Position numbers and translations under genes: made by a program. A model generated the notes under the pieces. That model made no database searches and was not told the origin of the DNA. It was given only the letters and a program-made list of their open reading frames with translations. From an uncultured Prochlorococcus sp. (GTDB taxonomy: Bacteria > Cyanobacteriota > Cyanobacteriia > PCC-6307 > Cyanobiaceae): a stretch of DNA of 64,000 nt. Positions 1 to 52,620 of the stretch are shown piece by piece (the stretch's first letter is position 1; the number at the start of each line of letters is the position of its first letter). The stretch spans positions 62,001 through 126,000 of the forward strand of contig CACBEF010000003.1 in the NCBI GenBank assembly GCA_902538225.1, read 5' to 3'.

Positions 1-320
1 AATTTTGCTTTTTGATTGGTGTAGACAATTGGTCAATCGAGTTACAAAAAAGTGAATTCAATTCACTGTACCTTCTTCTTTTAAGAATCAATGAACAACT
101 ATTAGTTATTAAAGATGAACTAATGGATGAAGAATCTATTACTTTAGAATTAGAACAATTACCTTGGTATATTCACTTAGAGGGAAAAAAAAATGAATGG
201 AGTTTAAGGTTTGTTTATGAAAGTCAAGACCAAACTAGATCCTTCGAAATGTATTGGCCGATACCAATAGCACAAAATTTATTTTATGAAATAAAAAACA
301 TGTGGGAATCAATGGATTAA
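1..320 (+). CDS. DUF1818 family protein, 5' end cut by the window
   Basis: Conserved cyanobacterial protein of unknown function. The open frame runs to the left edge without a stop, so the TTG start listed at base 12 is probably an artefact and the real N-terminus lies outside. Recognisable DUF1818 blocks are the NWSIEL start, the acidic MDEESITLELEQLPW stretch and the C-terminal MYWPIP plus final MW. The family is normally about 115-125 residues, so only a short N-terminal piece should be missing. No catalytic motif is visible. Followed by a 313-bp non-coding gap. Confidence 0.75.
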   Translation, partial: FCFLIGVDNWSIELQKSEFNSLYLLLLRINEQLLVIKDELMDEESITLELEQLPWYIHLEGKKNEWSLRFVYESQDQTRSFEMYWPIPIAQNLFYEIKNMWESMD

Positions 321-22263: not shown

Positions 22264-22320
22264 TAGGAATGCTACAAAACTTAAGTTATATCAATGGATT
22301 CAGTATTTTTGCTCATTGAT
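22264..22320. repeat. Conserved non-coding block with ATCAAT-N19-ATTGAT, copy 2
   Basis: Homologous to 10963-11019: GAATGCTAC..., then ATCAAT, 19 bases, ATTGAT with identical spacing. Both copies neighbour SAES microgenes. Confidence 0.55.
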
Positions 22321-22350
22321 ATATTGATTCTTAGAATAATATTATTATTG

Positions 22351-22467
22351 ATGCCTAAAGAAGGTTTAATTTTGAAAAAAATAATTAAATTTTTTAAACT
22401 ACTTCAGAGACGAATTGACATTCGTAACTCAGAGACTGAATTGAAATTTATATTGGAAAATAAATAA
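22351..22467 (+). CDS. Basic microprotein, 38 aa
   Basis: Not in the ORF track. Product MPKEGLILKKIIKFFKLLQR then RIDIRNSETELKFILENK: an amphipathic basic helix. TAA overlaps the ATG of the next gene (TAATG), indicating coupling. Function unknown. Confidence 0.5.
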   Translation: MPKEGLILKKIIKFFKLLQRRIDIRNSETELKFILENK

Positions 22468-22613
22468 TGGGATTCCCACATTGCCCTATTTGTGTAGTTC
22501 TAGCATTTGTTTCAGTTTTTATGGGAGTTACTCGTAGTTATATGTTCTATATTCTTGTTCGGGAGTTTATGAGAGCCGAATCTACTTTTAAATTGAAGTT
22601 TAGTTTCTATTAA
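22467..22613 (+). CDS. Membrane microprotein with CPIC motif, 48 aa
   Basis: Not in the ORF track. Product MGFPHCPICVVLAFVSVFMG then a region VTRSYMFYILVREFMRAEST and basic end. One membrane helix follows the CPIC pair. Coupled to the 38-aa gene by TAATG. Confidence 0.55.
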   Translation: MGFPHCPICVVLAFVSVFMGVTRSYMFYILVREFMRAESTFKLKFSFY

Positions 22614-22616
22614 TTG

Positions 22617-22645
22617 TTGACATCTAAGTATAAATACTTTATAAA
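22617..22645 (+). promoter_or_regulatory. Strong sigma70-type promoter with palindrome in spacer
   Basis: TTGACA (22617-22622), 17-base spacer, TATAAA (22640-22645). The spacer contains the palindrome AAGTATAAATACTT at 22626-22639, where a bound protein would block polymerase. It drives the riboswitch-microprotein unit. Confidence 0.7.
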
Positions 22646-22667
22646 TAGATTGTAGTGAATACTACAA

Positions 22668-22749
22668 AATCGTCCGATCTACCATCTGATAGACCGCAGT
22701 ACGACTCAAGCCATAGGACGGGGACTTGAGCAAGTTCAGGAGCTGCATC
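22668..22749 (+). promoter_or_regulatory. Candidate glutamine-II (downstream-peptide) riboswitch
   Basis: A compact leader RNA with CGTCC/GGACG closing pairing, an internal hairpin TCTA(CCATCTGA)TAGA, the segment CCGCAGTACGACTC, and a hairpin loop CTGA (22686-22689) that can pair with TCAG (22736-22739) next to the AGGAG ribosome site. Glutamine-II riboswitches of marine picocyanobacteria have this plan: a hairpin whose loop forms a pseudoknot with the Shine-Dalgarno region before a very short ORF. The assignment is from memory of the motif and needs a covariance-model test. Confidence 0.6.
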
Positions 22750-22851
22750 ATGGTAAACATGTATTTCAATGGAAAGTCATTCGTATATTGTAGAAAACAA
22801 GAAGAAAAGATTATAAAGCTTACTTATAGAGGATCTATTTACTTGAAATAA
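22750..22851 (+). CDS. DUF4278-like microprotein, 33 aa, riboswitch-controlled
   Basis: Not in the ORF track. AGGAG lies 7 bases before the ATG. Product MVNMYFNGKSFVYCRKQEEK then IIKLTYRGSIYLK. The C-terminal KLTYRGSIY matches the (M)KLxYRGxxY core of DUF4278 peptides of cyanobacteria. It is the only gene after the candidate glutamine riboswitch, so a nitrogen-linked role is inferred. Confidence 0.65.
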   Translation: MVNMYFNGKSFVYCRKQEEKIIKLTYRGSIYLK

Positions 22852-30265: not shown

Positions 30266-30371
30266 TTAGTATATTTGTTTGCTTTTAAAATTGAAAGAGC
30301 CTGCAGGTATCCCACTGGCAAGCTCATGACGACCTAGTTAATTCAGATTTCTGACTTAACCAGCTAAGCAC
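30266..30371 (-). pseudogene. Possible frameshifted small gene
   Basis: A GTG frame reads VLSWLSQKSELTRSS and stops; an overlapping frame continues RHELASGIPAGSFNFKSKQIY. Together they look like one ~38-aa protein broken by a one-base shift. Alternative: a 29-aa ORF MSLPVGYLQALSILKANKYT in the third frame. Low certainty. Confidence 0.3.
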
Positions 30372-30397
30372 TTCCTAGATGCTTTAATCATCTTACT

Positions 30398-30411
30398 AAG
30401 TAAAAATACTT
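30398..30411. promoter_or_regulatory. Palindrome AAGTAWAAATACTT, occurrence 3; overlaps NtcA-like GTA-N8-TAC
   Basis: AAGTAAAAATACTT followed by ACC, which also makes GTA-N8-TAC at 30400-30413, the NtcA half-site spacing. A related GAGTATAAATGCTTA follows at once. Lies about 210 bases upstream of hli. Confidence 0.4.
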
Positions 30412-51975: not shown

Positions 51976-51989
51976 AAGTATAAATACTT
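51976..51989. promoter_or_regulatory. Palindrome AAGTAWAAATACTT, occurrence 4
   Basis: AAGTATAAATACTT, 80 bases upstream of the DoxX gene, inside a longer run GTAAGTAAGTATAAATACTTA that also contains GTA-N8-TAC. Confidence 0.4.
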
Positions 51990-52068: not shown

Positions 52069-52620
52069 GTGCTTTCAACAATTCTTACCAAGTCGTTTAG
52101 CAAAGATACTGCTTTATTAATTCTTAGAGTTATAACTGGAACTGTTCTTATTCATCACGGTTATGAGAAATTAGCTAATATAGAAAATTTCGCTGATGCT
52201 TTTGTAAGACCACTACATCTCCCATTCCCAATATTTTTATCATACATAGCGGCATTCTCAGAAATAGGTGGTAGTTGGTTGCTAATTATCGGCTTAGCTA
52301 CAAGATTCGGAGCTTTGGCAATCGTTGGAACAATTTCTGTGGCTATATATCATGCACTTGTTACTTCAGGTTTTAATATTTTCTTACTAGAGCTTTTACT
52401 TTTGTATTTCGCTTCAGCAACTTCAATTGCATTAACAGGGCCTGGTAATTTCTCCTTAGATGAAGTAATTATCAGAATTTTGAAATCAGAAGATGAAGAG
52501 GAAATCATACCTTCAACAAAAGTAAAACCTTCCAAGCAAGTTGAAGTTAAAGAAGAAACAAGCAAAGGTGGTTTATTTCAATTTCTGCAAGCGAACATAC
52601 TCTCAGATACTTCAAGCTAA
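52069..52620 (+). CDS. DoxX family membrane protein with C-terminal extension
   Basis: 183 residues. DoxX core in residues 10-135: ALLILRVITGTVLIHHGYEKLANIENFADAF, PFPIFLSYIAAFSEIGGSWLLIIGLATRFGAL, then four helices. A 45-residue charged tail follows (SEDEEEIIPSTKVKPSKQVE). GTG start. Redox or stress membrane complexes are known for the family. Its 3' end overlaps the convergent 57-aa gene by 9 bases. Confidence 0.85.
   Translation: MLSTILTKSFSKDTALLILRVITGTVLIHHGYEKLANIENFADAFVRPLHLPFPIFLSYIAAFSEIGGSWLLIIGLATRFGALAIVGTISVAIYHALVTSGFNIFLLELLLLYFASATSIALTGPGNFSLDEVIIRILKSEDEEEIIPSTKVKPSKQVEVKEETSKGGLFQFLQANILSDTSS

Follow-up and report, generated by a model that had tools for sequence, protein, structure and literature searches.

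A 64,000-nucleotide stretch of DNA from an uncultured Prochlorococcus sp. (the window) probably encodes an mRNA in which a type-2 glutamine riboswitch precedes a 33-aa microprotein, with NtcA blocking transcription and glutamine turning translation on, and which is one of several paralogous copies. The covariance match at 22668-22730 (+) identifies the riboswitch as a new copy of a known kind, and the riboswitch class, the short ORFs behind it and its multi-copy nature are already described in the consulted portions of PMC2864571 and PMC6316151. A conserved dyad in the promoter, which also stands before several electron-transport genes, seems less known than this kind of riboswitch and offers a fresh lead.

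Glutamine-II aptamer and its paralogous classes

The region 22668-22730 (+) matched the Rfam covariance model RF01704 (Glutamine-II/Downstream-peptide riboswitch) with 58.4 bits against a gathering cut-off of 33 (E 1.5e-11 with the whole window as search space), which bears out the Glutamine-II assignment of the original prediction. On the plus strand the aptamer comprises the 5' pseudoknot strand CGUCC (22671-22675), the P1 hairpin (22678-22693, with 22678-22681 paired to 22690-22693), the linking strand GCAG (22696-22699), P2 (22705-22730, with 22705-22711 paired to 22723 and 22725-22730) and the 3' pseudoknot strand GGACG (22716-22720), which pairs with the first. Pairing and covariation were scored in an alignment of 24 aptamers representing all six classes defined below. 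P1, P2 and the pseudoknot together had 93.8 % of cells paired, a value that fell to 50.3 % or less when the 3' partners were slid as a control, and 69 cells were changed on both sides, against a shuffle mean of 19.4. Compensatory changes were found in 11 of the 17 aptamer pairs, with four of four pairs in P1 (84.9 % of cells paired), six of seven in P2 (93.9 %) and one in the pseudoknot (100 %). The conserved long-range C of the linking strand (section 12 of PMC6698751) is C22697, and its C:G pair is present in 23 of the 24 sequences. Positions C1, G2, G18, C39, G40 and C19:G41, given as ligand-contact or core positions in sections 12 and 17 of PMC6698751, are present in the alignment, and the glutamine contacts named in the discussion of that paper are unaltered in class C, to which the window copy belongs.

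Class C differs from the other classes within the pseudoknot, which reads CGTCC/AGGACGGG in 26 of 27 class C copies and CGTTC/GGAACGGG in 90 of the 91 copies of other classes, so that U4:A37 with G35 becomes C4:G37 with A35 (26/27 copies). Section 12 of PMC6698751 describes a G35>A37:U4 base triple in the crystal structure; all three changes fall on this one triple, so that class C appears to have exchanged an entire base triple. Neither such an exchange nor the promoter dyad was met in the consulted portions of the cited riboswitch and Yfr papers. A match of the 5' hairpin to the cyano-S1 leader, which reached 21.2 bits with a cut-off of 39.9, was dismissed, as were other sub-threshold Rfam matches.

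The riboswitch was found in all 37 genomes of the same genus (1-5 copies each) and in none of 23 genomes of other families, 60 genomes having been searched; within the family, all 16 genomes from five genera carried it in 3-7 copies. The ORF behind the riboswitch was used to sort 118 of 119 RF01704 matches into six classes. Match L119 (24.9 bits, below the cut-off), which lies within apparent histidine kinase coding sequence, was excluded from the class counts. Class A (28 copies, 33 aa) and class B (28 copies, 57 aa) encode proteins with a Pfam DUF4278 match, class C (27 copies, in 25 of the 37 genomes) encodes 33 aa, class D (6 copies) 109 aa, and class E (24 copies, L094-L116 and L118) and class F (5 copies, L086, L087, L089, L091 and L093) each 54-56 aa. 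The class E and F proteins (MNNLLQIREKI.., MNELSQIREKI..) match no Pfam family above the cut-off, and their 29 copies have no GTA-N8-TAC box. Two class C copies lie about 9-21 kb apart in G144, G083, G084, G117, G150, G163, G074, G171 and G185, which suggests a local duplication or an old pair. In class D (L046:1567-1896, L320:9949-10278) the riboswitch and a GTA-N8-TAC box precede the 109-aa protein at the end of an apparent nitrate island with a molybdopterin oxidoreductase, an MFS transporter, moeA and moaA; the reductase occurs in 4 of 24 same-genus genomes searched, and class D in three of these four and in none of the other 20, making its protein a candidate glutamine-ON modulator of nitrate use.

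The genome that contains the window (1.06 Mb, 67.5 % complete; window GC 26-34 %) has three RF01704 copies, of which the window copy scores lowest. Its low rank and the incompleteness of the genome are what could be said for a chance or decayed intergenic copy, an explanation that is scarcely credible given a score far above the cut-off and the conservation of promoter, box, aptamer, Shine-Dalgarno (SD) sequence and ORF in relatives. Conservation outside the aptamer was assessed in 139 distinct class C leaders from related strains, which are not independent of one another. Many of these leaders were found by a pattern scan requiring AGGACGGGGACTTGAGC, and an ORF-start pattern was also used for selection; conservation within the AGGACGGGGACTTGAGC stretch is not counted as evidence because the scan required it, and the promoter, the GTA-N8-TAC box, the SD and the ORF all lie outside that stretch.

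Promoter, box at the probable start site and spacer dyad

The consensus promoter TTGACA-17-TATAAA that had been proposed upstream of the leader is present at 22617-22645 and is kept in relatives: of the 139 leaders, 124 have the -35 element TTGACA (22617-22622, +) and 108 the -10 element TATAAA (22640-22645, +) at an unchanged offset, and 127 have the looser form TTGACR-16..18-TAWWWW. It was not listed by a simple promoter scanner, because the scanner demands T as the last -10 base. Directly upstream lie two overlapping short ORFs (22294-22467, 57 aa; 22467-22613, 48 aa) with no Pfam match.

Between the promoter and the aptamer, at 22652-22665, stands a GTA-N8-TAC box, GTAGTGAATACTAC, presumably the NtcA consensus. 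The box is found in 133 of the 139 leaders at a fixed position, its end lying 5-6 nt upstream of the pseudoknot strand, and in all 89 class A-D copies; the whole 64-kb window contains 13 such sites. Yfr6 is the class A paralogue, and when its coordinates in the consulted part of PMC1242208 are placed on G015 (taken as MED4), its mapped 5' end coincides with the initial G of its own box. By homology G22652 would be position +1 and the probable start of transcription in the window copy. The nitrogen-type element of this promoter is predicted to be the GTA-N8-TAC box, as an NtcA site, and not the spacer palindrome. Two-layer control of the microprotein by nitrogen status, as originally put forward, remains plausible with this correction, the box in 133 of 139 leaders having gone unnamed in that proposal and the palindrome having stood in its place. 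A comparable arrangement is given in section 13 of PMC6316151, in which the type-2 copy PMM1846 has an NtcA motif and its expression is boosted in nitrogen excess. Under nitrogen scarcity, NtcA activated by 2-oxoglutarate would cover +1 to +14 and so prevent use of the promoter, this being a repressing position if transcription starts at G22652.

The palindrome claimed for the promoter spacer proved to be real. The 17-nt interval between TTGACA and TATAAA holds the dyad AAGTATAAATACTT (AAGTA-TAAA-TACTT) at 22626-22639, a perfect 5+4+5 inverted repeat of a kind present in 114 of the 139 leaders, compared with 11.8 % of shuffled promoter intervals. RAGTA-N4-TACTY occurs in 116 of the 139 leaders and, by class, in 23 of 27 class C copies against 0 of 91 others. 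The arms co-vary (AAGTA/TACTT, GAGTA/TACTC, AAATA/TATTT), with an outer pair of A-T in 90 and G-C in 19 of 132 parsed leaders, and because the dyad lies upstream of the predicted start its symmetry would be one of the DNA. The dyad is a proposed operator.

Searches for further dyad sites gave no clear excess of RAGTA-N4-TACTY in the genome of the window (18 sites, 12 in the control). In five more complete genomes, both strands of which were searched, TAAGTA-N4-TACTT was found 16, 11, 15, 14 and 13 times against 1, 5, 5, 5 and 4 times for the control. Sites lay 3-80 nt upstream of ndhI (5/5 genomes), ndhD (5/5), a gene for a 137-aa protein (5/5), DoxX (4/5) and an AOX-family oxidase (2/5), the names ndhI and ndhD being a reading of family matches and the flanks in same-genus strains being shared by descent. 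Some orthologous sites differ in the N4 but not in the arms, and in G106 three of 11 distinct sites are inside long ORFs. The exact TAAGTA-N4-TACTT pattern precedes class C in two of the five genomes; the L084 leader of G015 (taken as MED4) has the GAGTA/TACTC form, and class C was not found in G022.

Three genes in the window itself have the dyad, namely the class C gene, Yfr20 and DoxX. The Yfr20 small RNA (Rfam match RF02367) is at 30298-30384 (-), with the dyad AAGTATTTTTACTT (read on the minus strand) in its promoter at 30398-30411, and a second copy of AAGTATAAATACTT at 51976-51989 stands upstream of the DoxX orthologue (52069-52617, +). Among 17 distinct upstream regions of Yfr20, 15 have the dyad at positions -28 to -15 relative to the start, and G015 (taken as MED4) has two dyads before Yfr20. 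According to the consulted part of PMC2518516, Yfr20 has its own promoter and is the only MED4 ncRNA that rises from darkness to high light. The occurrence of the dyad before ndhI, ndhD, an AOX-type oxidase, DoxX and Yfr20 suggests a third input, from redox state or light, for which the dyad in the microprotein promoter would be the candidate operator.

Microprotein and proposed translational switch

The ORF predicted behind the leader, with a protein ending in KLTYRGSIY, is present at 22750-22851 (+; ATG at 22750, stop ending at 22851) and encodes the 33-aa microprotein MVNMYFNGKSFVYCRKQEEKIIKLTYRGSIYLK, with the C-terminus KLTYRGSIYLK. Its length is within the 17-100 aa range of the definition given in PMC2864571, as far as consulted, for short ORFs directly behind the riboswitch in marine cyanobacteria. 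The ORF is conserved and under purifying selection, with a pN/pS of 0.225 against 114 other distinct ORFs and pS greater than pN in 106 of the 114 comparisons. A search of 150 genomes of the order detected the class C protein in 45, which belong to two genera, and sister-genus copies are 61-67 % identical. This selection, the persistence of the frame in the sister genus and the fact that the Yfr6 papers concern the class A paralogue rather than the window copy together make it quite improbable that the transcript is a bifunctional or mainly regulatory small RNA with a secondary ORF, as was once proposed for Yfr6; what favours such an RNA, in the consulted parts of the two papers, is that Yfr6 was initially reported as a long ncRNA containing a 33-aa frame (PMC1242208) and that an antisense RNA, Yfr14, overlaps it (PMC2518516). 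The minus strand carries TATAAG within the window ORF (22823-22828), roughly matching the position of the Yfr14 start with respect to the paralogous Yfr6.

The description of the ORF as DUF4278-like holds in part: the window protein had no match to Pfam DUF4278 (PF14105) up to E 5, whereas classes A and B do match, and a weak relationship may be reflected in the alignment of the window-class profile with the DUF4278 paralogues (hhalign probability 73.6, E 2.9e-5, from very short profiles of six and five sequences). No tblastn match to the 33-aa protein was found in 50,697 phage records, a weak test with so short a query.

The structured leader and AGGAG ribosome site of the original prediction are likewise present, with AGGAG at 22738-22742 (+) and an SD-like motif in 137 of the 139 leaders. 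Next to the SD stands CUGC (22743-22746, +), complementary to the linking strand GCAG and its proposed partner in glutamine-free RNA. Of the 139 leaders, 128 have CTGC no more than 12 nt from the ATG, and it persists when the final SD base or the spacing of the SD is altered; it is missing in 11, mainly from the sister genus. Minimum-energy folding without pseudoknots paired GCAG with CUGC in the four class C leaders inspected. Complementarity between linking strand and ribosome binding site was only weakly better than in shuffles (median fraction as low, 0.09-0.11 for class C; across the remaining five classes, 0.14-0.52), which counts against a linking-strand platform. In a partition-function estimate (n=137) the SD was not freed by the aptamer, its mean unpaired probability being 0.66 when the aptamer could pair and 0.43 when the aptamer was masked, which is opposite in sign to the ON model and also counts against this platform. 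On balance, GCAG:CUGC pairing may be the likeliest expression platform; it is the least certain step of the mechanism, with about equal chances of being right or wrong.

A different contact had been proposed between the CTGA of the P1 loop (22686-22689) and TCAG (22736-22739), which overlaps AGGAG. The window does contain these complementary stretches, P2 is followed by the SD after only a few nucleotides, and four pairs can form in 76 of 129 usable leaders if G-U is allowed, so that glutamine might sequester the ribosome site, for example through this CUGA:UCAG pairing, in an OFF switch with the microprotein made under nitrogen limitation. No co-variation accompanies it, however: 5 of 28 distinct loop/ribosome-site combinations can pair, against a permutation mean of 4.9 (129 of the 139 leaders usable), and CTGA:TCAG was rejected as the switch for this reason, the predicted switch pseudoknot being CGUCC:GGACG. 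Type-2 glutamine riboswitches are moreover reported as ON switches in the consulted portions of PMC6316151 and PMC6698751, and the position of the GTA-N8-TAC box at +1 points to expression when nitrogen is in surplus. An OFF switch is accordingly judged unlikely.

In the preferred glutamine-ON reading, ample nitrogen would allow glutamine to close the CGUCC:GGACG pseudoknot, which would capture the linking strand GCAG and keep it off the CUGC beside the SD. GCAG:CUGC and the glutamine-bound form would be mutually exclusive, and CUGC released from GCAG would turn translation on. The structural work in PMC6698751, as far as consulted, places the ligand in the pseudoknot helix and the linking strand in the pseudoknot groove, and suggests that the ribosome site is otherwise hidden by an alternative structure. 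Because both layers would act in the same direction, the microprotein would be a nitrogen-surplus product, and by analogy it might serve as an IF17-type modulator of nitrogen metabolism. A fuller reading with three inputs, in which the dyad (T)AAGTA-N4-TACTT(A) is the operator of a redox- or light-responsive regulon (ndhI, ndhD, AOX/PTOX-type oxidase, DoxX, Yfr20) and the linking strand is the anti-ribosome-site strand, is tentative and somewhat more likely wrong than right. If true, Prochlorococcus would use a glutamine-switched microprotein to connect its nitrogen status to the state of electron transport, and capture of the linking strand by the glutamine pseudoknot would explain how type-2 riboswitches turn on.

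Prochlorococcus has few regulators. By sequence the dyad ties one microprotein to NDH-1, to an alternative oxidase and to a high-light RNA, so that a link between nitrogen and redox control could be tested on a single promoter. Control of glutamine synthetase in Prochlorococcus is described as unclear in section 13 of PMC6316151, where inhibition by an IF7/IF17-type factor is left open for picocyanobacteria, and glutamine-switched microprotein paralogues with shared NtcA-type boxes provide a direct place to test it.

Comparison with known systems

Yfr6 of MED4 and SS120 (PMC1242208, PMC2518516, as far as consulted) resembles the window copy in its riboswitch, its start-site box and a 33-aa ORF at about nt 98. 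The two are not the same gene, because the published MED4 and SS120 coordinates of Yfr6 give the class A paralogue (MTLIYRGQKY..., with a DUF4278 match) in G015 and G061 (taken as MED4 and SS120), whereas the window copy is class C; identity with Yfr6 was rejected. As a marker of the Yfr6 neighbourhood nrdJ could not be placed, PF02867 having been found in 0 of 13 genomes, and no 6S RNA was found near class C in seven stretches.

PMM1846 of MED4, a 7-kDa DUF4278 protein in the consulted part of PMC6316151, shares the type-2 glutamine riboswitch and an NtcA motif in the promoter; judging by size, its counterpart is likely the 57-aa class B paralogue, whereas the window protein has 33 aa and only one clean LTYRG repeat. 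The gifB/IF17 system of Synechocystis likewise combines NtcA and a glutamine-ON riboswitch with a small protein that has a DUF4278 part, but IF17 is under a type-1 aptamer and the window protein is without the rest of IF17. The window copy is like RF01704 itself in covariance match, P1, P2, pseudoknot, ligand-contact positions, a short downstream ORF and occurrence in marine cyanobacteria, from which the window class departs in having C4:G37/A35 instead of U4:A37/G35, together with the dyad in its promoter spacer.
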